This document shows positions 21,904 through 48,749 of a stretch of 64,000 nt of DNA, piece after piece. Within the stretch, counting starts at the first letter, position 1, and each line of letters begins with the position of its first letter. This stretch comes from Edaphochlamys debaryana (taxonomy: Eukaryota; Chlorophyta; Chlorophyceae; Chlamydomonadales). A program made the translations under genes and the position numbers. The stretch is from contig JAEHOE010000002.1 in the NCBI GenBank assembly GCA_016858145.1, forward strand, positions 3,472,001 to 3,536,000. Reading direction: 5' to 3'. A model generated the notes under the pieces. That model had not been told where the DNA came from. It saw only the letters and a list, made by a program, of their open reading frames with translations, and did not search any database.

Positions 21904-23736
21904 CGTGGCGTGGCGGGCTGAGTGAGCGGGGGCCTGCATGGGGCCTGGGCCTGGACCCTGGGCGGGAGCTCTGGGCCTGAGCTGGGCTGCCAGGGGCCCG
22001 ACGCTGTCCGCAAGAGAGCGGGGGGCTGCGTGGTATGCGCAGCGGCTTGGGATGATGGTTCGAAGTTGAGGGGAAAGAGGGCGAAGGATGAGAGGATGGT
22101 AGGATGGGGACCCGGAGCCAACGAGGCGCACAGGCGGAGGGAAGGGACGTGGGGAAGGGCCTGCCGAGGCGTCTTGGATGGGGTGATATTGGGATCTCAA
22201 AAACGCAGAGGACTGGCCCAATGGGCACCGACTATGCGGCATGCGGCAGGGGCATATGCAGGCGGATTCCAAGCGCGTTCGTTCGACACGCAAAGACGCA
22301 TGGAGCATATGCAGTTGGGCAGAGTGAAGGACAGGAACGTTTCAAGCATCCGGTGATCCGGTGCTGTTGGTTGAGACCGTACGGACTCTGTAGACGGGTT
22401 TGTTGTGCTTACTAATGTGCCGTGCATGGTTCCGCGTGCCAGGCGTGGGGTTTCTGTGCTCGCAGGGGCCGTGCAGCGTAGTCCGGACGATGACGCAGGG
22501 GGATGCAGCTGAGCGCGCTGTCGCAACGCGAGGCGTGGGGCGAGGCACGGGCCCCTGCGGCACGGGGCATGGGGTCTCAAGTGCACATGTTTATTCGTAC
22601 AAACCGTTGCGTTGATCCAACGCATTTGAGGTGGCAGAACTGCACCATTGTGGCCCCGGCTGGGGTATGCGGTTGGGCGTGACATTCCGCATTCCGAGTC
22701 AAGAGGCATTCATGGGTCTCCTGCTCGCCGGGTGAGGTCGAGCTTTGTATTGCTATAGCCATAGATTAGCTAGATTCGTGATTCGTTGCCGCAAGGTGTT
22801 GGGTCAAGGCACGGCGTGGGTTCGTGGACTCCGGGTGGACGGCGTGTGGGTGGCCGGTGCTGAGAAAGGGCACTGGGCTGAGGGCGGCCGCCGGCGCCGT
22901 ATCTGGCGGCAGGACACTGACAGGACATGACAGCACACGACGCCTGGGGGATAACGTCGGAAGGATAGCTTTTGACGCTGGCGAGACGAGCGAGGGGTTG
23001 GCAGGATTAGGGCAAGGCAGGCCGCGAGGTGGAGGAGACAAGTGGTGGGGCGATGCGTGCGCCTCGGCTGAGAGGCAGTCCGGCAAGTCCATGGGCCAGT
23101 GCTGTGGTCAGTGGTCTAGCTGCATGTCGCTGATGTGGGCACACTCCGCAGAGGCAGTCGGCAAGTACAGGCATGTAACTTGCGAAGCGCGAGCGGCGCC
23201 GGCGACGGTCCGAGGCGGCGGCGGCGCAAGCACGCAGCTCCAACTTTGGAGCTGTGCTCTGGCGCCCGCTGCTCTGGAGCACCAGGTGCGTGTGTGCACA
23301 CAGGGTGGGCGTAGCAGCTTTGTCTTCCTGTGTGCGGCAGGCGCGGCAGCGAAGCGAGCAGCGATGTAGCGAAGGCTCGCGAAGCGCGCCGCGAGGCTTT
23401 GACCCTTGGGGCGGCGCGTCGACGTGGCTCGCGCGTCCGACCTGGCGTTCCCGCGCTTCCCGCCCTTCCCTCGGGCCCAAACTTCGACAAGCGCTTCCGA
23501 GCCATGGACGTATAGCGATACAGCTCACGGCGGCACCCAAACGGCAGCAGCTACCCAAACGCTGGACGCGGGACCTGCCCAACGTTAGACCCTGGGGCTA
23601 CCGCGCCAGAACCCGACCCACCCCGCGCTACGCGGACCCGGCGGCCACCCGCTTTCTGCGCTCTCGCCGCTGCTGCAGCAACTATTTCGTGCTAGCTATA
23701 GTACCTTTGTGAGCCCCGGCGACGCGCGGAGCGCGC
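21904..23736. other. Intergenic region between ankyrin-RING and zinc-finger genes
   Basis: No gene supported. It should hold the 3'UTR of the ligase and the promoter/5'UTR of the zinc-finger gene. A short perfect inverted repeat lies at about 22605-22622 (TGCGTTGATCCAACGCA). A TGTAA is present at 23176. Confidence 0.5.
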
Positions 23737-24026
23737 ATGCAGCCGCAGCCCGCGGGCCGGGCCCCGCTCCCGCCGCGGGCGCCCGAGCCCGAGCCTGAGC
23801 GCAGCCCGCTCGCCGGGGGCCCAGCGTCCAGCAGCGACCGCGGCCGCGCCTGGACCCCGCTCCAACCCGCAGCTGCAGCTTCCTCGCAGCACCACGAATA
23901 CCCGCCGCAACACCACTACCCGCCGCAATACCATCCTCAACAATATCAGCACCAATACCGCCCCCAACAACACCAGCCTCAGCTAGAGCTAGCGCTAGTC
24001 GTCGATCAACAAGAGCAGCTAGAGCA

Positions 24027-24064
<38 letters not shown>

Positions 24065-26025
24065 CGGCGTCCTATGGCAGCGAGGAGCAGAGCGACCAGC
24101 TCGCGCTCCTGCTGCGGCGCGCGGGCAGCTCCGCAGCTGCATGTCCGGCAGGGGGCGGCGGCGGCAGTGCGGGCGACGGAGCAAACGGAGTCAACGGAGG
24201 CGCCAATGGAGGGCATGCAAGGGATGGAGGAGGAGGGGGCGGTGGCGGCGGCGGGGGCCTGCCGCTGGGGGCGAGGCTGGGCCAGCGCCTGGCGGCGGCG
24301 GCGCACCGCTCGCCCTCGCCGCTGCACTTCCTGGCAGAGGCCGCGGAGCTGGACTCCCGGGCTCAGGCGCTGCTGAGTGCCGAGCAGGAGCACCAACAGC
24401 AGCAGCATCAACAGCAACAACCGCAACAACAGAAACAACAGCAATATGAACAGCAGTATCAACAGCAGTACCAACAGCAGCAGCTGCAGCAGGCGTATGG
24501 GTATGGGTACCCGGAGCCGGCGCAGGCGCTGGCGGCGGAGGCTGAAGACCCCGGGGAGGAGCCGCAGTCGGATCCCCAGCAGCAGCCGTACGAGTCGTAC
24601 GGGGCACAGGCACCGGCGGCGGCGCTGGATCTGGATCTGGGTCTGGATCTGGAGGGGCAGCAGCGGCAGCCGCCGCCGGGGCTAGGGCGGGGCCAGGGCG
24701 ACGGCCTGGCGGCGCCGCTGGGTGCCGTGCAGGTGGGCGGCGCCGCCGCGGACGCTGGGGATGTCTTGGCGGCGCCGCCGCCGGATGGCGGGACGACCGG
24801 CAACGACGCCGTCGCAGCTGCGGCAGCGGCAGATTCACTCCGCTGGGACCAGCTCCTGCCACCGCCGGCGGCGGCGCTGGTGCCACCAGCGGCGGCGGAG
24901 GCCGAGGCAGCGGCGGCGGCGGAGCGGGCAGAGGGCAGGCGGCCACGGCCGCCGTCGCCGCCGCCGCCGCAGACGACGGCGTTCCTGGCGCAGCCCTGGG
25001 TTCCGCCGCCGCCGCCGGTTGCGGCGTACGGCGACGGGCCCCCAGCCCGACGCGCACCAACTTACCAGCACCACGCGCCGTACGACAACCCGTACCAGCT
25101 GCCGTACCCCGCCCAGCTGTACGGCAGCAGCCCCCACGCTGCGCCGCAGCACTCGTACGGCGCCGCCGGCGGCGGCTATTCCTACCAGCAGCAGCCAAGT
25201 CCTCACGACAGCAGTGCGGCCGGCTTCCATGCCTCCTTCCACGCCGCCTCCTCGCCGCCGTCTTCCTCCTCCCTTCAGCACTCTCGGCCGCTCCCGCCAC
25301 AGTACGGCTACTACCCCCACCCGCACCCTTACCAACAACAGCAGCAGTACCCAGAACAGCAGCATCCGTACCAACAGCAGTACTACCAGCAACAACAGCA
25401 GTACCAGCAGTACCATCAGCAGTACGCTGGCGCCGGTTCGTACTACTCACACCAACCGCCATCCGCGGCTGCGGCGCCGCACCACACAGCAGCCAGCCCA
25501 CAGGCTGCCGCCGCCGCCGCCGCCGCCGCCCCTGGTGTCCGCACCCCAGCTCTTCTCCGCCCCCAGCCCCTTCGGCCCCAGGCGTATCCCCACGCCGTCG
25601 CCGCATGGGGCGCTGCAGCCGCTGGCTATGAGCCTTCCGGAAGCGATGGCGGCGGCGGCGGCGTTCGTGGCGGCGGAAGCGGCGGCGGCGCTGGCGGCGG
25701 TGTGTATGGGGCCGCTGACGACGGCGTACCTGGCGGCGCCGCCGGCGGCTGCAACGGGCAGTTTTCTACACCGCTCGTTTTTCAGGGCCTGCAGCAGGGC
25801 GGCGCTGACGCTGGCACGCCTGGCGGCGATGGCGGCGGCGGCGGCGATGGCTACAGCGCTGTCGCCGCCAGCGCTGCTGCCAGCGATGGCTGGGGCAGCG
25901 GCGGCGGAGCGGCACCCGCTGGCGTTGGCGGAGTCGGTTCCGTGGCTGGCGTGCAGGAGGAGTATGAAACCATACGGGGTGCGGCGCCGCTGCCACTGGC
26001 GGCGCCGCCAGCCGGACCTGGGGCG

Positions 26026-26057
<32 letters not shown>

Positions 26058-29000
26058 TAAGCCGGGGTCGTCAGGGCCTGCACTCCGTTGGCCGCCTCCG
26101 GCTCCGGCGGCGGGGGGCTCGGTTTCCCCGCAGCAGTCGGCGGCAGCTGCCGCCGCGGCGGCGGCAGCAGCAGCAGCAGCGGCTGCCGCCGCCGCGGCGG
26201 CGGCCGTGGCAGATGGGTCGGCGCTGCCGGAGGGGTGGTGGTCTGCCGCCATGCAGGCCGGGGCCGCGATGGCGGCAGCACAACCACCAACCGCCGCCGC
26301 CGCCCCCTCCGCCGCTGGCGTTACCGCCGCCGATGACGTAACGGCGGCGGCGGCTTCAGCGTCTGATGGCGGTGCTGACGTGGCGGACCTGGCCGAGCCG
26401 GGCGCCCCCGTCGCCGTCAGCGGCGCCGCCGGGGATGCAGGAAACGAGCAGCCGCCAGCCGCCAACGCCGCCCAGCCGCTGCCGTACGCCGCTGAGCCGT
26501 ACGAACAGCAGCAGTACGACACCCAGTACACGGCGGACGACTCCGGGAGCATCGGTACGGCATACGACAACGGCAGCGTCAGCGACGGCAGCACTGGTAA
26601 CGGCGGCGGTGGCGGTGGCAGTACGGCGGCGGTGCAGGGTCAGTCTGGCGGCGGCGGCGGGGGCAGCTACTACCGCGATGTCAGCGATGCCGAGGCTAGG
26701 TTCGCCTCGTACGGCACGTACGGCATGTACGGCAACCCAGCTGAAGCTCCGGGCCTGCGGCCGCTCCCGCCGTCCGTGCCGTCACTGCCGCCAGCCCTGG
26801 CCCCGCTGCCAGCACCGCCCTCACGAACGGCGGCGGCGGCGGCAGCTTCTCACGCTGTCGGGGCTCCGTCGCCGCCGCCGCCAGCCGCGCTAGCTCCGCC
26901 GCCACCACCTCTGCTGCCGCCGCCGCTGCCGCCGCCACGGCGGTCCCAGCGGTCGCGGAAGGGGGCCCTGTTTGCCGCCGCGCTCGAAGCCGAGGCGGCG
27001 CCGTCGGAAGACGAGGAGTCGGAGGATGAGGAGCCGGAAGTCAAACCGACGGGCCTCGCTGCCGCACCCCGTGACCCGCATCGGGCCGTACAGCCGAATC
27101 TGGTCCTCGGGGCTGACCAGAAGGCAGAGCTGGACAAGCTGGTGGACGAGGCGCAGCGGGCCCAGAATCTCAGCCTTGCCTTTGGCTTCGATCTGTACCT
27201 CGGATCCGGGTACGGCAGCCGCATGGGCGAGACCTCCGACATGCGGCTGGCGGCGGAGGCAGGGGAGCTCTCAGCGGCGGCGGCGGCGGGCGGGCGGCCG
27301 CGGCCAGCAGCGTGGGTCGTGACGGGCAATGAGCCGCCCGCCAGGCGGGCACGCGTGGATCGAGATCCACGCCCTCAGGCTCGGATACAGAGCGCTGACT
27401 TGGACGCCGCCATGGAGAACCGTCGGTCTCCGGCTGGAAAGGCCAGTGGCGGCGGCAGTGCCGGCGGCGGCGGCGGCACTGCCGGGGGTGGCGGAGGCGG
27501 ACCTCGGGCACGCGGCAAGCCGGCGGCGGCCTCTCCTCGGGGCGGCGGCGGCACTGGTGGCGGCGGCGGCAAAGCACGGGGCCGGGCGGACCGGCCGTCG
27601 GCGGAGGGGGTCGGCAGGCGCCTGGCGGCAGGAGCGGCCGCGGCGGCGGCGACGCCAGTCCCGCCGCCGCCGCTGTCCAGCCCCCGCACCGCTGCCGCCG
27701 CCGAGGCCGTGGCGGCGGCGGCCGCCGCCGCCGTCGGCCTGTCGTACGGCACCCCCGCCGAGCCCTTCACCCCCCGCACCCCCGCTGCCCCTGCCGCCGG
27801 CGGCGGCGCCGCCACCGCCGGCGGCGGCGGCGGACGCCGCAGCGCCAGCGGCGTCATCGCCGCTGGCGGCGGCGCCATCATCCCCGCCGGCGCGCCCGCC
27901 GCCGTCACGGCCGCCGCCGCCGCCGCCGCCGGCGACGGCTCCGGCCGGTCGTGCTATGAGTGCGGCGCCACCACCACCAAGTGCTGGATGACTCATAAGC
28001 AGTTCCCGTCGCAGCGCACCTGCAAGGCTTGCTACAAGCGGTGAGTGGATGGGCGCCTGGGCATGCGCTGCCGGGCATCGTCATGGGATGGGGGCATTGG
28101 ACATCGACCGTACTATGCCGTACAATGCCGTGGCATGCAGGGGCCTCTCACGCGTCCCCCAGCGGCCCCGGCGCCTTGCCCCATGAACCACCACCCGTGC
28201 CCAAACTTCCCACCCCCACCTACCTTCCCCCAGCTTCCTCCGCCACGGCCACTACGGCCGTGTCGCACCCCTGCCCCTCTGCGTGGGCGAGGACGAGGAC
28301 GAGGGAGCGGCCGCGGCGGCGGCGGCGGACGCGGGGCAGCCTCCGCTGCCGGCGGCGGGGCCCGGCGGCCCTGCCGCGGGCGGCGGCGCTAGCGCCAGCG
28401 GCGGCAACGGCGGCGGCAGCGGTGGCGACGGAGGGCGATCTGGCAGGCGGTGCTACGAGTGTGGGACGAGCCGGACCGGGGTGAGTGGGTGGTGGCGCGT
28501 CAGGGTTGGTGGCGGGTTTGGAAGCGTGGTAGGGGTGGTGGTCACATGCGTCGGGGCGGCCGTGTGAGTGCGGGCTTTGCGATGTGAGGAAGGGCGGCGG
28601 CCATGTGCTCAAGGGCACACCATACAATCGACCGCCTTGACATCATCTGTACAGGGAGACCCGCCCCTATGGTGACAGCGGAATGTACCGGCCTCAACAC
28701 GTACTCCACTCCCCTTGTGACTCGCTGGCCCCCGCCCTCCATCCCTCTCCCTCTGCCCCCTGTCAGGGCAACTCCTGGAAGAGGCACAAGCTGGTGGCGG
28801 GGGAGGTCACGTGCAGGTGGGTGTGTGGTAGTGGTAAGTATGCGTGTACGGAGCGTACCGTTGGATACCGTTGGACCCCGTTGTGCGTGCGCAAGCTTGC
28901 TACGGGAGGTCAGGGGAGGTCACGTGCAGGTGGGGGTGGGGGGATCGGGAGGGGCGTGGGTGAGCGTTGAGAGACAGAGGGGAATGGAGACAAGGCAGCA

Positions 29001-37452: not shown

Positions 37453-40400
37453 ATGGAGCAAGCGGCCGCGGAGGGCGGCGCGGGCACAGCGCCGGGGCAG
37501 GGCGAGCAGGCGCACCAGGCGACAGCGCTGAGGCGTAGGGCGGAGGCGCTGGCGACGCGGGTGGGTCCCGGGGCTATCTCTTCGGGCTCAACACGAAACC
37601 ACCGCCATCCCACTGCTAAATGCTACCCAACTACTGCTCTCCACCGCACTGCTTCTGAACCTTTACTAGCTTTCCCTTTCCTTATGTTAATTTTGAACAG
37701 GTGCTGCGGAGGGGCCTCGCGGAGATGGCCCGGCGCGCTCGAAGGCAGCGGGCGAGCCGGGGCAGCACCGGGGAGGGGGAGGAGGGGGAGGAGGAGGAAG
37801 GGGAGGGGTCCGGCGGGGAGTACGCGATGCAGCCGCGGCCCCACCAGGTGGGTGCGGTGGCGTTGCCGCTAGGGGGAGGGGGCAAGGGGGGTTGTGGGGA
37901 TGGCCCCGACAGATGTGCGTGTGTGTTTTGCCGACGCGTGCCGCGCCGTGCCGTGCCGCCAGGTGGATGCGGTGGCTTCGCTGCTGGTGGCGGTGCACGG
38001 GGACACGGCCGCCCCCGACCCCACAAACTACCTGGTGCAGGTGGGGACGAGGGGCGGGGGGGAGGGGTGTCGGGGGAAATGGGCAGGCGTGCTTATGTGT
38101 TTCGCCGACGCGTTCCGGGGTGGGCAGGGCGGGAGGGTGGCTGTCTGCGTGCGGGGCGGGGAACGGCGTCCAAGCACATTGTGTAAACCAGCACCCCGCT
38201 CCCCACTTCCCCTCACTCCTAACCCCCCTTAGCACTCCGCCGGCAGTGGCAAGTCCGCCACCCTCGCCGCCCTCGCCACCGCCCTCGCCATCGGAGGGAG
38301 CAGCTGGGCCTATGACGGTACCGACGGCGGTTGGGCGCACGGCGAGCCAACCGCCGACGGCGGTTGCGACGGTTGGTCCGACGCCACTGGGAACCGCTTC
38401 TATCCGGTGCTCGTCCTGGTGGACCGGACGCAGTTGGACGAGCAGCTTGGGGCGGCGGTGGACGCCTTCTGGGCGGGTGGGCCTGGGCCGGGTTGGAGTG
38501 GGCCTGGGCAGGGTTGCGCTGGACCTGAACCGGGTGGAGGGGCCCAGATTGCGAACGAGGCATCGTGGCACAGGACTGGGCAGGTGGAAGGGTCTAGGAT
38601 CAAGGGTTTAGGGCCCGTGGCTTGTTGGAACGCAGTGCTGAGATATGCGTGGCCGCACAGATCTCTCTTGCGCCCGTGCTCACGACTCCCTCATTGCAGG
38701 CAATGGCTGCCCACCCGCCGACCTCACTCGAGCCGCCTCCACCGCTCAGCTGCGGTCCTTCCTGGCCTCCGCGGCCTCCGCCGCCGCCTCGCCTGCCGGC
38801 CCCCGGGCCCCCCGTCGGCTGACGTCAGCAGCGGCGGCGGCGACGGCAGCGCCCACGCCCCGTGTGGTGTTGGCGACGGTACAGAAACTGACAGCGCTTT
38901 GGCGCAGCGGCGCGGGCGCTAGCGGCAAGGGCCGGGGTGGCGGTGGCGGCGGCGGGGGGAGAGGTGGCCCCGGAGGAGGAGGCGCCGCTGGCGGCGGCGG
39001 AGGGGGCGTGGAGCCATTAGGCGGTGGGCAGGTGAGGCTGCCCAGGTTCCGAATCAAGAACCAGGTCTGGACCCGGTGGTCGCTCATGATCTGGATTCGG
39101 ATCTTGTGACAGCAGCACTTGTGACCCGTGATCCGGACAATCCGGATCCGCCGCAGGCCCGCATCGCGATCATTGCGGACGAGGCGCACCGCCACCACGG
39201 CCACGGTACCACGGACCAGATCCACCAGGTAAGGCTGTACGGCAGATCACAGAGAGTCAAATTCCATGCTTTTGCGGCTCCATGACACGACCTTCCATGT
39301 CCATGCCTGCTCCTTGACTGCCCCTCTCCTGCCTGCTCTCCCCTGAACCGATGCTGGTAGATTCTGGCAGGGGCCTTCTCGAACAGCCGCCGGGGCGGGT
39401 ACCGGTACCACTTATCCTGCCCCATTCCATGTCCGCTTACTTCCGCGCCCCCTCCTTCCAATCCCGCTCCCCTGTAGATCCTAGCGGGGGCCTTCTCGGG
39501 CAGCCGCCAGGGGGGCGGCGGCGGCAGGCCGGGCCAGGGGCGCGTGCAGGCGCTGCGGCAGCCTCGGCACCTGACGTACGTGGGCTTCACGGCCACGCCC
39601 AGCCCCAAGGTGGGTGTGCGGTGCCGTGCGGCGGTGCCGTGCGGGGCTGTCTGTACGGTGCTGTGCGGTGCCGTGCGGTGCTTAGCACGAGAGGCCATCG
39701 CGCGGGCAAGGGGCCTGTCAGGCTTTGCAGCTCTCATGCACGGTGCGTGGTCCCCAGAAACCTGCTACCACAACCTTCCTCCCTGGTCCCTTGCCTGTCC
39801 CCTAACCTTCCTGCTCTCTTCCCTTCGACCACTCCAACCCCATTGCTTTTGTCATTCCAAGGCCCTTCAACTCTTCGGCGTCTCGACGCCCGTTCCAGCG
39901 GACGAAGATCACGATCCCCCGGATCTGGCTGACAGGGAGCAGGCGGCCGTGGACGCGGATGACGAGCCCGCCATGCTGTACGCGCCGTTTCATTCGTATA
40001 GCATGCGATGCGCCGTCCATGACGGCTTCGTACTGGACGTGCTGCGTTCGTACACCGCGGTTACGCCCCGGTTACGCATCGCCGGGTTGCGGAACGGCTC
40101 CGCCGAAAACGGGTCCGGGCCCCACGACAACAAAGCCGAAGGCAACGGAGCCGGGGCGGTTGCTACCGTTGGAGAGGCGGTCAACGGTACCGTTGGACCA
40201 ACCAACGGCAGGGTCGGGGCTGGCGGCGACGGAGGGTGCGAGGAGGGCGAGGCGGCTGCTGGCGAGGCGGCGGCGGGCGGGGGTCTGGCTGAGGAGGCGC
40301 TGGTGGAGGCGGCGTATAACAGCCGCGATGTGGTAGAGATCAAGGTGAGGTTTAACGGGATCCACATCCATGGAATCTGATTGGAGCATGCATGGTGGAG

Positions 40401-43400
40401 CGCAAGGTGGGCCTGACGGAACGCATAATTGCAAGGTCCCATCAGCCCGCCTGGCCTCCTCCTTCACTTGCCCCCTCCGGCCCGCATCCTTCAACCTCCT
40501 CCACCCCTTGCTCCCCCCAACCCCCACCCCACCTCAGGCCGCCTACATCGCCTCCCGCTTCGGCGAGCTCTGGGCCCGCGCCTCCGCCGCCGGATTCAGT
40601 CAACTCCGGGGCATGGTCGTGACCCGCAGCCGCCAGCACGTGGCCTGGTACTGCACGGTACGACGTGATCTGCCGTACAGCTGCATGACAGCGCCACAGG
40701 GGGGAACGGGGCCTCCATCCACCAGGTTCTAATGCTGACCCCCACCACCCCCACCCTCGCAGGCGCTGCGGCGGGCAGTGGCGCAGGAGCCCGCCCTGGC
40801 TCGACTGGCGGGTGGGGGCGGTGGGCGGGGAGGGCCAGGGGACCCTAGACGTAGGGCTTTCCCTGGTGCGGCAATTGGGTGCGATCTTGCCACGACTCAT
40901 CAGATCTCACACGCCTGACGCCGACACCGGGCGGCCAACCACGGGCACAGGGGATCGGGGGGATAAGGGATAGGGGCTTGGCGGGTGGGGCTGTGCTGCA
41001 GTCCTGGATCAGGGAGGTTAGGGGGGCTAAGGACGTAGGGTTTGCCGTGGTTGGGGGCAGGGATGAGGTCTTGATGGCTGGGCAGTTGGGAGGTGGGGAT
41101 GCTTCCGCTCGAGCTACGACTGCTCTCGGCCCCGCGCGCCACACCCTGCCCACCACCCTGTCCACCATGGCATAGGGGCTAAGGGGCATGGCCGCTTATG
41201 AGTGCTTGTCCCCATGACACGACCGCTTGAATCCCGCGCGCCCCACCTTGCCCACCTCCCTGTCCACCGCTCCGCGGTCCGCAGAGGAGGCCGCCCGGGC
41301 GGACCCCTCCGACGCCGCCGCATCCAGCCGCGGTCCTTTCGTGTACGGAGCCTTCTCAGGTAACAGCCCAGCTGACTGACTGGAATGCTGTGAAGCCTCT
41401 GGCTATGTTAGGAAGGATACCTAGAACATGCCGGCATTGACTGGCAATAAGTGTCACCCTGCCTTGGGCCCTATCTCCTTCGCACCGCGCCCTACCTTTT
41501 GCCCTTCCTTCCTCCTGGTCTCCCCATCACCCCGTGACCCCACCCGCAGGCTCCGTGCCGATGCCGGAGGATGAGGCGGAGGCGGTTCAAGCAGAGCTGG
41601 GGGCGGCCGGCTGGGCGGGGGCGGGGGCGGGGGCGGCCGCGGCGGCGGCGGGTCGGCGGCGGCAGGCGCGGCTGCGGTCCGGGCGGGACGGCGGCGGCGA
41701 CGACGAAGGGAGAGGTAAGACCAAGCCCAGCTGCAACTCCGGTATGCCTTCCCGATCATGATCCATCAAAAGAGCCGTGGCTGATTACGGTATTACTTCT
41801 CTATTGCAAGGAGAAGCTCTGAGGCGGAGGCGTGTGCGCTTGGATTGAAGAACTGCCTTAATGCGATTGCCCCTGCAACCGTGCAGGGGAACCCTCCGGA
41901 TCGGGCTCGGATGCAGACGGCGGCGGCAGGGCTGGCGGCGGCGGCGGCGGCAGGTGGCCCAAGCGCCGCCGCGTTGGCGCCAAGGGCGGCGGGGGCAAGG
42001 GCAAAGCGAAAGGCGGGGGCTGGGATGCCGCATTGGCACACCTCGAATCCCCAGCGGGCCCGAAGGGGAAGGCAGGGGCGGAAGACCAGGAAGAGGAGGA
42101 GGAGGAGCAGGGGGTTGGCGCGGACGGCGGCAGCAGCAGCGGCAGCGGCGGCGACGACGGGGCGGGCGAGTCGGAGCTGTCGAGCGAGAGCGAGGGCGGC
42201 AGCGATAGCGGGAGCGAGTGGAGTGCGGAGGAGGCTAGCCTGCCCTCCGACGACGAAGAGAGCGGGGACGAGGACGGCGGGGAGGAATCCACAGATGCGG
42301 AGGCCAGCGCCGGCAAAGGGCAATGCGACGGGCTCAGCGGCAGCAGTGACGGGGACGGCGACGGCGAGGGGAGTGGCGGGCGGCCGCCGCGCAAGCGGCG
42401 GAGAGGGCTGTCCGCCGGGCCTTCGGCCTCGGACGGCAAGGGTCCTGCCTCCGCCGCCGGCGGTGGCGAGGGTGGCGAGGCCGGCGGCGGCGGCGGCGGC
42501 AGCTCTCTGTTTGGGAGCGAGAGCCGCGGCGGCGAGGCGTCGCTACAACGGGCTTCGGGGCGGCGGCGGAGCGCCAGCGGCCGGGCTGCGGTGCGCCGCC
42601 AGGCCAGCCGCCTGTCGGTTGGGTCCAAGGGCGGGCCCGGACGGGCCCAGGCCGGGCCCTGCGGCGCTGCCATGACTGTCGACGAGTGCATGGAAGACGA
42701 AGAGCCGCCTGCCGCTGCCGCCGCCGCCGCCGGCAAGCGCATCCCCCGCGCCGCCTCGTGCACCGCCCTGCAAAAGGGTGCCTGCAAGGACGGCACACGT
42801 GCGGGAAGTGATTGTACGGCGCATAAACGTGACGGTACGGCGGTGGAGTTCGTCCAGATCAGCGAGTCGGACCTGAACGGTCGCGGGTCGGACCCGGCGG
42901 CCGCGAGGCTGCTGGTGGTCTGCTCTAAGTACGAGACCGGGTACGACGACCCTCGCCTGGGGGCCATGTTCGTGGACAGGTGCGTACGTCATACGGTGTA
43001 CGACATACCGGTACGGTGTACGGCGGCGTACGTGAAGGCGTACGACGTTCTGTGTGGATGGGAATTCGGTGCGTGTGGAGACTTGCTCAGCCTTGGCTTG
43101 CCTTCACGCCTGCCCTCCACAGGCCCCTGTCTGGAGCTAGGGCTGTGCAGGTGGGGTCCTGGGGATGGAGGTTTACAGGTGGTAGCAGTTGAGACGGAAA
43201 GCAGAAGCGCAGGGCGGCAGGGGCAGACCGGTGCTTGCATGGCCATCCTTGCGCCGCGGGGCTGGGGTGTCCGCACTCTGGTTCCTCCGCCTCCACACCT
43301 CAACCCCCGCTCCTGCCAACCCCACTTCACTCCCCCCCCCGGCCCCGGCCCCCCCCGTAACTCCCCTCCCCTTCCCCCTGACAGATCCTGGGCCGCCTCA

Positions 43401-46400
43401 ACCGCCTCTCCCCCCTCACCCCAATCCCCCACGACCTCCCCTCCTTCCATCTCCCCCATCTCCTCTCCCCCCTCCCCCTGACAGGTCCTGGGCCGCCTCA
43501 ACCGCCCCGCGCCCCGCCTGCGCAAGGCCTCCCCCCTCCTGGCCGTGGTGGACTTCGCAAACGGAGTGGGGGCGCTGCGGGAGGCGTTCGAGGACTTTTA
43601 CGACATAACCACACTAACAACAGGTAGGGTCGTATCTCCATGCGATTGCGAAACAATATACTGGACAGTTTGGTTTGAGTGTTTCGAGGGAGGCGCTCGA
43701 GGACTTTTATGAGATCACCACGCTCACCACAGGTAGGGCCCTACGGATATGGGCTACCTTAAGAGAGGCGCTTTGACTAGAGCCGCCTACGAGGGACTGG
43801 GGTATATGTGCCGTCTGAAGAGCTGCCCTGGTCTGCGGGCTTTATACTCTTAGTGGACGTTCACATGCGCACCGGGGTCCATGCGGGGTTCGTGCGAACC
43901 CGTCACATGTGGACAGCCCCCTGCCAAGGTAGGCCCCGGGCCCCATAGTCGACGCGTTTTGTGCCAGATAGGGGTGATGCTCACGACTCGTCGTCCCGTG
44001 TTTTGTCCCCAGGCAAGGCGGCCCGGCGTCTGACCCTGGAGCGCCAGCTGGAGCGCGCCCTCTCACGTGTGCTGGACGTACTGCAGCCCGCAGCAACCGC
44101 CGCCGCCGCCGCCGCCGCCGCCGCGGGCCCAACCGCCGCCGCCGCGCCAACCGCCGATCTGGGTCGCATGGGCGTACGGCAGCTGGCGGCGCTGGTCTCG
44201 TCCAGCTGGGTGCCGGCGGAGGCACGGCGGGCGCTCGAGTCTGACCTGGCGTCGTACGTGGCGGCGGCGGCGGCGGCGCGGGCCGAGGCGGCCGAGATGC
44301 CGCTGCCGTTCGCAAAGGCGCTTCTGGCCCAGGTACGGCGGTTTGGTCGTTTGTGTGGCGGTTAATCGATCGGTTGGCGGTCGGGACCGCTGGGTTGACA
44401 GTGCTTGCTCAGCTCGGACCATTCCTGCCATCACCCATTCGGCCTCCCTTTATGAAACCCTCTCCCTGCCCTGTAGATCACGGCTGACCGAGAGGCTCGC
44501 GAGCGACACCTCTCCGCCGCCACCGCCGCCGCCGCCGCCGCTGCAGCGGCCGAGGGCGGCGGCGGCGGCGGCGTCACACCGGCGCTTCCGGAGGTTTCCG
44601 TGGCGGGATGCGAGCTGGAGGAGACGTTTGCTGGACCCATCTACCTCGGGCCGCCGCCGCCGACAGCGGCGGCGGCGGCGGCTGCCCCGGCTGTCCCGGC
44701 GGCGGCGGCAGCGTTCAAGTCGGCGGCGGCGCCGTCAGCCGCTGGAGGCCCAGCGCCGGGCCCAGAGGGGGCCCAGGCGGGGCCCGGATCGGTGTCTGTA
44801 GCCGGGGCCCCGGGTGCCGGTCTGGTTGGAAGCTTCGCTGCTGCGGCGCCGGCCGCGGCGGCGCCACCAAGGCCTGCGATGCTGATCCGGCGGCTGGGCG
44901 GAGGGCCGGCGGCTTCCGGCGCGGCGGCGGCGGCTGCGAGGGGCAGGCGGTGAGCCGGCAGCTGTACCCTTTGGTGTCTGGCATGTTCCCTTTAGTACCA
45001 ATTCTTATGCACCGCTCTGTCGCTCTGTACCCCTTGCCTGCATACCGCCTCGCTCAATGCAGGGCCACGGGCGCCGGCGGGGGCAGGGGCGCTCCGTCCG
45101 GCGGCACGCGGCACTCGCGCCAGGCCGCCGCCGCCGCCATGGAGCGTCAGGTGGGGGCATGTGTGCGGCACTGTGCTGTACGGCGGCAATGTCGTACCTT
45201 CTACTCGCAAAGGGCAGATGTCTAGGCCTTCCCGCACTCAGGGTTTCCCGTTGTTTGCCAACCAACTCGTACCCAACGACACGTACGGCTCCCGTACATC
45301 GCAGGTCCGCCGCAACCGTCCCCTGGCGGAGGTCATTGCCGCTGCCAACGCCGCCCTCGACGCGGCGGCGGAGCGGCGGCTGGCGGCGGGCTTCCGCGAG
45401 GCAGCGGCGCGCCTCTCCGCCATCAACGCCGCCGCTGCCGTCGCCGCCAGCCCTGCCTCCGCCGCCGCCAGCGGCGCCGCCGGCAACGACCCGGCGCCGC
45501 CGCCGCCGCAGGACGTGTACGAGGTGCTGTGCCTGCTGCGCCGCCTGAGCCTGTGGCCCGTCAGCGTGGAGCAGCTGAGGGCGACGGCGGTGGGGCGGGA
45601 GGTGGCGGCGCTGAGGAAGCACCCGTGCGCGCAGGTGCGTGCTCTCGATATCTTCGTGTGAGGGGGTAGGGTGGGGGCGGCTTGAGGGGGGGGCGGGGTG
45701 GGTGGGTTTCTTGGGGCGGGACGTACCGTAATGGCGCGATCAGGGGGCGGGGGGCGGGGGGAGGAGGTTAACGACTCGGGACGGGTTACAATGGCAGCAC
45801 GGGAATGTGTGGCGGTGGTCCAGGGTCTGTTCGAGTGAGCCACGGCAGGGGGGCGGTGCGAGCGGTTGAAACGCGGATGCAGGGTAGCGACGGGGTGGTC
45901 TCGTGCAGGGGAGGATGGGTCCTGGCTTGGGGCAGTGGGCGACAGGACCTAAGGGCCGATACCGTAATTCACGATGAGCTGTTGCACGCGCCACTCCTTT
46001 CGCTCAATGGCTTGCGCTTACCTTCAATGCCACCTTCCCGTTTACCGCAGGTAGCAGCACTGGCACGCTCACTGGTGGCAAAGTGGAAGGTGGTCGCATC
46101 CAAGGCCGCCGCCCCGCCCGCGCCCTCCCCTGCCCCCGGCTCGGGCGCCAGCCCCGCGCCCCCCGGCTCCTCCGGCCCATCGTCCGCCCCTGCCAACGGC
46201 AACAATGCCGCGTCCGTATCAGGATCCACATCTGCCGTGGACGAGAAGCTGAGATCCAAGGCCAGATCCATGCTGGCGGATTCGTTGCGTGCCCACGTGG
46301 CGGCGGCGGCCAAGGATCAGGGCCGCCAGCCCACGCCGTCGGAGGCGGATGCAGCCCGGCTGGAACTGGCGGCACGGGGTGTGGAGGAGGCCGTGTACGA

Positions 46401-48749
46401 CATGTACGGCAAGGCCGACGACGGAGGTGCGTAATCTGCATTCTTGCTGCTCGTACTTGCCCCCTAATCATCGCCATAACATCATCCTTACTCATACGGC
46501 GCCCTCCCGAAACACCTCACCGCGCCTGTGCCGTACAATGCAGGCGCGTCGTACAAGGCGCGCACGCGCATGCTGGCGGGCGCTCTGCGTCACGGTGACG
46601 GCGTGGCGGGCAGGCTGCTGGCGGGCGATCGGGCGCCGAGGGAGCTAGCGGAAGCTGACTCCATGGCCCTGGCGCCTGCGTCACTACGGGCGCAGGTACG
46701 CACGTGGGGCCGTGCGTGGGGTCCTTCATGGGTGGGGCCGTACGTGGGGCCACGGATTTGCACGTCCTGTCAGGCGATGAGGCTTGCAGGACCGCCCAAA
46801 AATGGGCTGGTGGGGGTCGAGACACGGGTGTTGTTCATGGGTTCGATTAGGGTCCGTCATGCGTGGGGCCTTGAGCGGGGGTTTACAAGCAAAGCGCAAT
46901 GCCAGTGCCCGAGGGCACGCTCTGGCTCCACGCCTCGCGGTCCCCCTCCACCCCGCGACCCCCCGTTGCCTCGCCCTCATACCCATGCCTTGGCTCCCCC
47001 CCCCCCCCCCCCCCCGCCCTCATACCCATGCCTTGGCCCCCCCCCCCCCCCCCCCCGCCCTCATACCCATGCCTTGGCTCCCCACCCCCCCCCCCCCGCC
47101 CTCATACCCATGCCTTGGCTCCCCACCCACCCCCCCCGCCCTCATACCCATGCCTTGGCTCCCCCCCCCCCCCCCCGCCCTCATACCCATGCCTTGGCTC
47201 CCCACCCACCCCCCCCGCCCTCATACCCATGCCTTGGCTCCCCACCCACCCCCCCCGCCCTCATACCCATGCCTTGGCTCCCCACCCACCCCCCCCGCCC
47301 TCATACCCATGCCTTGGCTCCCCACCCCCCCCCCGCCCTCATACCCATGCCCCGACCCCTCAGGCCGAGGAGCGGGAGCGCAAGCGGCGGCAAGACATGG
47401 AGGCGTGGGAGAAGGTACGACATGTTGGATGTCGTACAGATGTCGCACAGATCAGGGGCGAGTACTCCTCGCATTTTGAAGTGGCGCTGTCGGCTCAATC
47501 GGTGGACGCATCTGGGCCTCGAAAGCGCCCCCGAGTACATTTACTTGGCCGCAGTGGCTGCCGCTCTCGCTTGTGCCGCACTCAAGATCGCACCCACCCC
47601 GCACACATGGTAGACGACCCCGCCGCTATAACAAGTGGGGAAGCCAAGTGCTCTCACGGCCCGAAAACGAATGGGGCCGCAGGGAAACGGATGCCCTCAC
47701 CCCGAAGCGAAAGGGCCCCCAGGCAAACGAATGAGCTCACGGCCCCGAATCGGATGGCCCCTCAAGAAACGAGTGCCTTCGCAGTGACCTCGCAGACCCC
47801 GAACGGATGGCGCCGCAGGGAAACGAGCTCCCTTGCAGACCCAAAACGGATGAGACCGCGGGGAAACGAGTGCCCCTTGCGGCGCCAAACGGATGGGGCC
47901 GCGGGGAAACGAATGCCCTTGCGGCAATAGAACGGACGGGGCAGCACGGAAACGAATGCCCTTACGCCCCCAAAACGGACAGGGCCGCGGGAAAGCAGAT
48001 GCCCTTGCGGCCCTAAAACGGATGGGCCGCACGGAAACGAATGCCCTTGCGGCCCCTCAACGGATGGGGCCGCGGGGAAACGAATGCCCTCACTCACCTG
48101 TCCCCGCCTTCCCCCCCTTGCATTGTAGCTGACCGTTCTCCTCTCCTCTCTACAGCACCACCCGCCCTTGCGGCTTGCCGGCCAGGGCGGGCGCCTCCGC
48201 CTACAAGAACACGCCCCCCTGTTCTCCTGACTCCCCCCAACCTTGACTCCCCCCGCCCTCTTCCCTCCCCCCCCTTGCCCTCACAGCTGGCCGGCCAGGG
48301 CGGCGGTGCCGCCACCCACAAGAACACGGCCGCGCTGTGCCCCTCCTGCGGGGGCCGGGGAGCCACCGTGCACACGGTGCTGAGCGGGGGCACGTACGCG
48401 CAGGAGAGGGTGCAGGTAAGAGGGTGCATGCGAAGGGTTAGAAAAGGGAGCGGGTGGAGATCAGGGGGCGGGCGACGGGGAAGAGGGAATGGAGGTACGG
48501 GAGCGAGGGGGCACGTGCGAACGGGAACGAGTGCGTGCAGGTCCGGCGGGCATGTGGATGGCGGTGAGGGAGGCGGTCCCGGCTTGTCGGTTGGTCTGCT
48601 CCCCCGCGGGAAGTCCCCTCGGGCTGAACTTGTTTCCCGCACCCTGCCCCCACTTGTTCAAGCCGCTCGACCCTGCCCCGCTGCCTCACGCCTGCCAGGT
48701 TCAGAAGTTTGTGTGCGACCACTGCGGCAGCATTTGGAGAAACGACTGA
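37453..48749 (+). CDS. HsdR-like SF2 helicase fused to a TFIIS-like elongation-factor module
   Basis: 24 exons join in phase into 1744 codons: 37453-37560, 37701-37847, 37963-38040, 38233-38476, 38700-39031, 39157-39228, 39478-39609, 39862-40344, 40538-40657, 40763-40811, 41285-41359, 41550-41714, 41887-42979, 43123-43150, 43485-43623, 44013-44332, 44477-44949, 45063-45150, 45305-45634, 46051-46426, 46544-46695, 47364-47414, 48287-48415, 48699-48749. Motor motifs follow the type I restriction R-subunit order: RPHQVDAV, HSAGSGKSAT (Walker A, about residue 112), LVLVDRTQLDEQL, ADEAHRHHG (about 311), GFTATPSPK, YAPFHSYSMR then DGFVLDVLRSYT, GMVVTRSRQH, VVCSKYETGYDDP, PLSGARAVQVLGRLNRP, DFANGVGALREAFEDFY. 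Exon 13 inserts about 360 acidic, Ser/Gly-rich residues with a WPKRRRV basic patch. The C-terminal third is TFIIS-like: LW domain (LLRRLSLWPVSVEQLRATAVG, about 1453-1513), central domain (about 1545-1668), zinc ribbon (CPSC...CDHC). Probably nuclear. Confidence 0.8.
46970..47350 (+). repeat. 40-bp minisatellite in helicase intron 21
   Basis: Ten copies of a unit built on CCCTCATACCCATGCCTTGG plus a C-rich spacer of variable length. The final copy (47339 onward, CATACCCATGCCCCGACC) runs directly into the CCTCAG acceptor of exon 22, so the array looks like amplification of the acceptor region. Confidence 0.95.
47657..48097 (+). repeat. Degenerate 45-bp minisatellite in helicase intron 22
   Basis: About ten diverged copies of a unit centred on GGCCGCGGGGAAACGAATGC, followed by CCTTGCGGCCCC and AAACGGATG. 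Copies nearer the 3' side are more alike. Confidence 0.9.

Follow-up and report, generated by a model that had tools for sequence, protein, structure and literature searches.

A 64,000-nucleotide stretch of contig JAEHOE010000002.1 of the green alga Edaphochlamys debaryana (positions 3,472,001 to 3,536,000 of the forward strand; hereafter the window), part of a 141.9-Mb genome in 502 contigs, contains a gene that joins two machineries on one protein. Specifically, its 24 exons (window positions 37453..48749, + strand, as for all features below, stop included) encode 1744 amino acids in which a DNA motor of the type found in HsdR, the R subunit of type I restriction enzymes, is followed by a module resembling the transcription elongation factor TFIIS. 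The parts are of known kinds, and their combination is new. We propose, with moderate confidence, that this chain translocates DNA in a manner coupled to transcription, docking on arrested RNA polymerase II (Pol II) without stimulating RNA cleavage.

The motor-TFIIS architecture itself is near certain. As the sequence-only reading had stated, the exons have good splice sites and keep a single frame; every intron is GT-AG (donors and acceptors read by hand), and the 1744 codons plus stop rebuild a protein identical over its whole length to the database entry HYH03_001241 (P0001), which derives from BRAKER annotation with one RNA-seq library per species according to an excerpt of the genome paper (PMC8226300). 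Third-position GC of the coding sequence is 0.833 and intron GC is 0.636, and residues common to the orthologues occur in all 24 exons. The same domain order is annotated in three further volvocine algae, Pleodorina starrii (1798 aa), Chlamydomonas incerta (1933 aa) and Chlamydomonas schloesseri (1992 aa), and is found on the single chains of a compact relative (P0005, 1174 aa) and of two more distant ones (P0043, 1190 aa; P0044, 1159 aa, whose longest contig spans 4052 bases), both of which pass the Pfam cut-offs for SWI2_SNF2, T1R_D3-like, Med26 and TFIIS_M. Another chain, P0042 (936 aa), stops within the LW domain (19.8 bits, cut-off 20.6). The fusion first seen in one algal gene is thus real but not peculiar to one alga, being present in four named volvocine species and in P0005, P0043 and P0044. 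The link exons 15 to 18 join in phase, as had been noted, and all four are conserved in Pleodorina, where identical over aligned residues number 35/46 for exon 15, 64/105 for exon 16, 56/104 for exon 17 and 9/29 for exon 18, with 70/110 for the adjoining exon 19. The ATG at 45139, considered as a separate start for the TFIIS part, reads as leucine in the P. starrii, C. incerta and C. schloesseri proteins, and P0005 has a gap there. A two-gene model is therefore unlikely, since orthologues and single chains share the order, the link exons are conserved and this ATG is not kept. Databases name the orthologues hypothetical or TFIIS N-terminal domain-containing proteins, and no such protein is named in the titles and abstract openings listed by topic searches of the literature (preprints and most subscription papers lay outside it), in line with the earlier statement that no described fusion of this kind was known.

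The motor carries the hallmarks of its prokaryotic relatives. Its first half occupies exons 2 to 10 (37701..40811, amino acids about 79-588), as defined by Pfam SWI2_SNF2 and ResIII, the alignment and motor profile segments. In an alignment of 65 rows, the Walker A motif GSGKS in exon 4 (38242..38256, amino acids 115-119) has its two glycines and lysine invariant and its first serine nearly so; in Walker B, DEAH, in exon 6 (39178..39189, amino acids 311-314), E, A and H are invariant and D nearly invariant; and in FTATP of exon 7 (39586..39600, amino acids 364-368) the proline is invariant and F-T-A-T nearly invariant. Exon 8 adds PFHSYSMR (39985..40008), which aligns with and is common to bacterial HsdR, exon 13 adds SKYETGYDDP (42924..42953), recognized in the sequence and the alignment, and exons 14-15 add LSGARAVQVLGRLNRP and VVDFANG (43123..43623), which are covered by the alignment and by the hsdR model match at 990-1082. 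The motor motifs of a type I R subunit that had been read from the sequence are thus borne out, with invariant core residues and with a fold match to EcoR124I HsdR. This is the best structure match for the motor of P0005 and for what follows it, as far as model residue 770 or so. Both the motifs and the fold of the SF2 motor are thus those specific to HsdR. Profile searches, which the sequence-only reading had suggested as a check, agree in part: SWI2_SNF2 (9.3e-9) and ResIII (7.1e-7) match, but T1R_D3-like (1.7e-4; 22.5 of 27 bits) stays below its cut-off, as does hsdR TIGR00348 (1.1e-12; 47.3 bits against a curated 284.55). The PADLOC model REase_I matches P0005 (1.5e-12), P0044 (2.5e-20) and P0001 (5.2e-5), and in PHROGs both P0005 and P0044 match phrog_3830, of unknown function, P0044 also matching a helicase family. 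The region behind the motor, encoded by exons 16-18 and the start of exon 19 up to LAEVIAAANAALD (44013..45364), matches bacterial HsdR profiles weakly (12.9%, E 0.0022), and its homology to the HsdR helical region is suggested by the order of the alignment and by the predicted structure.

The motor has lost its nuclease domain. No HSDR_N (PF04313) match appears in the P0001 entry or in Pfam scans of the gene, P0005 and P0042-P0044, and 77 amino acids precede the motor match, compared with a median motor start of 286.5 in the stop-to-stop frames of 80 prokaryotic loci. With its nuclease gone, classical restriction by the chain alone is unlikely. Compared with HsdR of the EcoR124I type and prokaryotic relatives with PF04313, PF18766 and PF22679, the algal chain is alike in motor motifs, motor fold and part of the rear region, but it lacks the nuclease domain, misses the hsdR cut-off, ends in a TFIIS module and has no HsdM or HsdS partner found in the genome, the last by a weak test. 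An acidic low-complexity insert within the motor, placed by alignment, runs from exon 12 through most of exon 13 (41550..42840); exon 13 (41887-42979) is rich in serine there and holds the basic clusters PKRRRV and PRKRRR, which may act as nuclear localisation signals to judge from their resemblance to such signals. The insert is absent from P0005, and similar basic clusters are visible by eye in other volvocine chains.

Behind the motor, the three TFIIS domains follow in their usual order. The N-terminal LW/Med26 domain (exons 19-20, 45533..46089; PF08711, 9e-13), whose exon 19 part is also recovered by the genome search, scores 48.3 bits against a Pfam cut-off of 20.6, and the central domain, or domain II (exons 20-22, 46240..47387; PF07500, 4.6e-9), scores 37.1 against 29.2. 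The four-cysteine zinc ribbon (CPSC...CDHC, exons 23-24, 48338..48746) reaches 11.1 of the 21 bits of its cut-off, and its four cysteines align with human TCEA1. Specifically, phmmer extends the match to TCEA1 over all three domains, ribbon included, from P0005 867-1164 to TCEA1 10-299 (E 6.6e-9) and from P0001 1456-1742 to 24-299 (E 5.4e-8), and TFSII TIGR01385 matches at 6.4e-17 with 62.2 bits, short of the curated 237.1. In hhalign (98.4%, E 6.3e-15) the chlorophyte-type modules, those of P0001, P0002, P0003 and P0005, run collinear with the P0043/P0044 modules for 241 columns. The chlorophyte-type module profile scores canonical TFIIS (its first 302 residues, without the ribbon) at 60.1 bits, above P0043 (46.3) and P0044 (37.2); the P0043/P0044 profile scores P0002 (35.3), P0001 (33.2) and P0003 (23.3) above canonical TFIIS (21.5) and P0005 (20.9). 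On these comparisons a single origin of the modules is likely, though unproven.

What sets the module apart is its hairpin. In place of the acidic RSADEP of TFIIS, as seen by comparison with TCEA1, the algal ribbon carries SGGTYAQER (48383..48409); P0001-P0004 share this sequence, P0005 has SGGTYAEER, and P0043 and P0044 have STTSMAGVGNQK. The Asp-Glu dipeptide, which an excerpt of PMC8886746 calls invariant, citing work that addresses its requirement in cleavage, is absent from all seven fused chains that reach the ribbon (P0042 stops earlier). At C115 the alga still encodes a canonical TFIIS (L001, read in exon-sized pieces) whose hairpin has RSADE, and a second TFIIS_M match in the genome lies at C120:15209-15403 (L002). 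The fused module and TFIIS (TCEA1, L001) therefore share the LW domain, the central domain and the four-cysteine ribbon in the same order, but differ in the replacement of the dipeptide by SGGTYA[QE]ER, in the position behind a motor and in the missed TFSII cut-off. The earlier description of a complete TFIIS thus holds for its domains and ribbon cysteines and for the LW and TFIIS_M profiles, but not for the ribbon profile, which falls under its cut-off, or for the acidic hairpin; with the dipeptide missing, this part looks like a docking module rather than a complete TFIIS.

These features are compatible with a model in which the LW domain and domain II would hold the protein on Pol II while the ribbon would enter the pore without stimulating RNA cleavage, so that an arrested polymerase would be marked and kept arrested. 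The motor would then hydrolyse ATP and pull duplex DNA, either pushing the polymerase over the block or stripping it off. Mfd and CSB/Rad26 contact polymerase through other domains, and TFIIS-like domains of the Bye1/PHF3 type are not known to carry the cleavage hairpin. The algal chain would combine on one polypeptide the parts of a bacterial Mfd and of Gfh1, an inhibitory Gre homologue. Similarity to Mfd and CSB is seen in the fold; the motor family differs from that of Mfd and CSB/Rad26, and coupling to transcription is, for the algal chain, a proposal. According to PMC8989532, both Mfd and CSB push a stalled polymerase after binding to its rear, and Mfd is helped by Gfh1 to dissociate the polymerase. 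Bye1 and PHF3 are a further parallel, in that a TFIIS-like domain with extra domains attached binds the Pol II jaw, but they carry PHD and SPOC domains and no motor, and the homology given in passages of PMC4100922 is to domain II alone.

Several observations weigh against the proposal of a docked translocase. Foldseek TM-scores to HsdR are low (0.23-0.26 by model length), the rmsd over the whole HsdR alignment is 18-20 and the domain arrangement is unmatched. The third ribbon cysteine of P0044 is off its usual place, and the P0005 TFIIS_M match (22.6 bits) misses the cut-off of 29.2. In the P0005 model the LW part alone is confident, and pLDDT is mostly below 50 in the central domain and ribbon, so this portion rests on sequence. 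One acidic residue, the E of AQER/AEER, remains in the hairpin of P0001-P0005, and the changed hairpin might still stimulate some cleavage. Pol II binding, ATPase activity and localisation are all predicted, and translocation by the motor is expected from its homology. The absence of partner families carries little weight: HsdS (PF01420), HsdM (PF02384) and HSDR_N have no match in the genome by an exon-by-exon search that missed the gene's own motor (PF18766), and for the same reason PF18766, which misses even HYH03_001241, is useless for counting motor copies.

Restriction motors are prokaryotic defence machines, and the available trees are compatible with their transfer into eukaryotes. Twenty-two rows were labelled eukaryotic-type by hand, either by name or by the lack of HSDR_N together with a divergent motor; P0001-P0004 and P0159 are labelled by organism name and P0042 comes from EukProt, the other 16 labels being inferred. 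In a tree with 74 bacterial-labelled motors, which remained of 250 after thinning by shared words, all 22 fall on one side of a branch (support 100, quick method), with P0214, P0231 (named partial) and P0233 kept on the bacterial side of this tree though they lack PF04313. A more careful tree, reduced to 15 eukaryotic-type rows by removing seven that were long or partial, and to 36 bacterial-labelled rows by removing two of the 74 and keeping every second one, supports the eukaryotic-type split at 100/100, and 15 eukaryotic-type rows likewise form one group against 80 named prokaryotic loci (100, quick method). All three trees are unrooted, and the long branches and odd composition of the eukaryotic-type rows were flagged. 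These rows group with no phylum, leaving no candidate donor phylum. The horizontal acquisition of a prokaryotic motor proposed earlier is therefore probable, as a single old event without a visible donor, though the unrooted trees, the long branches and the odd composition keep it from being firmer.

Within the careful tree, a group of 13 rows (96/94) divides into two branches that each contain fused rows, and the rows between them (470-775 aa) end before any TFIIS part. The TFIIS-fused label does not fall on one branch side and takes at least two changes, with 0% of 200 bootstrap trees requiring one. P0159 of Balamuthia mandrillaris pairs with P0050 outside the 13-row group (97/89). P0159 (1700 aa) combines an HsdR-type motor with Armadillo repeats, and P0056 (1277 aa) combines such a motor with a weak ARM-like match below cut-off; neither has an HSDR_N or TFIIS match. 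P0051 (1503 aa) has both an HsdR-type motor and, on the same chain, a TET-associated glycosyltransferase domain (TAGT, 2.1e-14), so that a link of such motors to modified bases is possible.

Other sources of the fused chain were searched as well. In viral contigs, 54 stretches matched two strict patterns (A2 scan) and none was confirmed, and in a further scan (A3) the matches of the best 80 of 159 confirmed loci extend no further than query residue 744, inside the motor or shortly after it, so that the TFIIS module is left uncovered. In prokaryotic genome contigs, the best 80 of 575 confirmed stretches similarly lie within P0005 residues 1-739 and stop short of the module. A plasmid search with P0047, made for an outgroup that was not used, returned 796 records, all below 60% identity; of the 40 listed, most bear the annotation of a type I restriction R subunit. 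Chlamydomonas reinhardtii, Volvox and Gonium are not named among the homologue matches listed (41; 120 of 496; 120 of 499), most of which are nameless and subject to length limits.

It is possible, if on balance doubtful, that a type I restriction translocase was domesticated in eukaryotes in a single ancient event and became a further transcription-coupled motor, in addition to Mfd and CSB. On this view a cleavage-dead TFIIS would find and lock arrested Pol II for the motor to remove or drive on, and relatives would have swapped the adaptor for Armadillo repeats in Balamuthia or for the glycosyltransferase domain in P0051, which together would make an undescribed eukaryotic family. If true, a restriction enzyme would have been domesticated for transcription by keeping its motor, dropping its nuclease and gaining a Pol II dock. 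As the algae can be cultured, the clearance of arrested Pol II by a translocase with its own polymerase-recognition module is open to direct test.

Two functional alternatives to the arrested-polymerase translocase appear unlikely. One is nuclear defence or silencing, in which the TFIIS module would tie the response to transcription of the foreign or unmodified DNA that the motor scans. The REase_I matches are in keeping with this idea, and P0051 hints at base modification; against it stand the absent nuclease domain, the single copy of exon 8, which among 19 candidates scored matches only itself in the genome, and the lack of any HsdM- or HsdS-type family, weak as that exon-by-exon search is. 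The surroundings lend no support either, since ten neighbouring frames have no Pfam match at E 0.01, and silencing of foreign DNA finds no support in the data here. Comparably improbable is a role in chromatin or termination, whereby a remodeller-like translocase would move nucleosomes or free Pol II at gene ends and the TFIIS parts would bind partner motifs of other elongation factors instead of polymerase; such binding would need less than the three TFIIS domains kept in order, and EcoR124I rows outrank remodellers by at least 2 in Z. Finally, that annotation merged an adjacent motor gene and TFIIS gene is scarcely credible: annotation tools can merge genes and the chain is known here from DNA and annotation, but the order is kept in four species and three single chains (one with the 4052-base contig), the link exons are conserved, and by alignment the HsdR-like part ends, with LAEVIAAANAALD, in the very exon 19 in which the LW domain begins, while the signal TGTAA, absent from the + strand between 38182 and 51948, decides nothing on a merger.

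The gene and its surroundings show further features. Three tandem pairs in the window, 83-90% alike and 100-117 bases apart (39357-39398 / 39474-39515, 43368-43415 / 43468-43515 and 43579-43634 / 43688-43743), each straddle an exon boundary, splice site included, and may thereby place decoy acceptors or donors in the adjoining intron. Outside the gene, an open frame of 1443 codons at window positions 23713-28044 lies in GC-rich DNA and has no Pfam match at E 0.01. Intron 21 contains C-rich repeats at about 46960-47360, as judged by eye, and intron 22 holds a minisatellite of some ten units of 43 bases (47647-48098).

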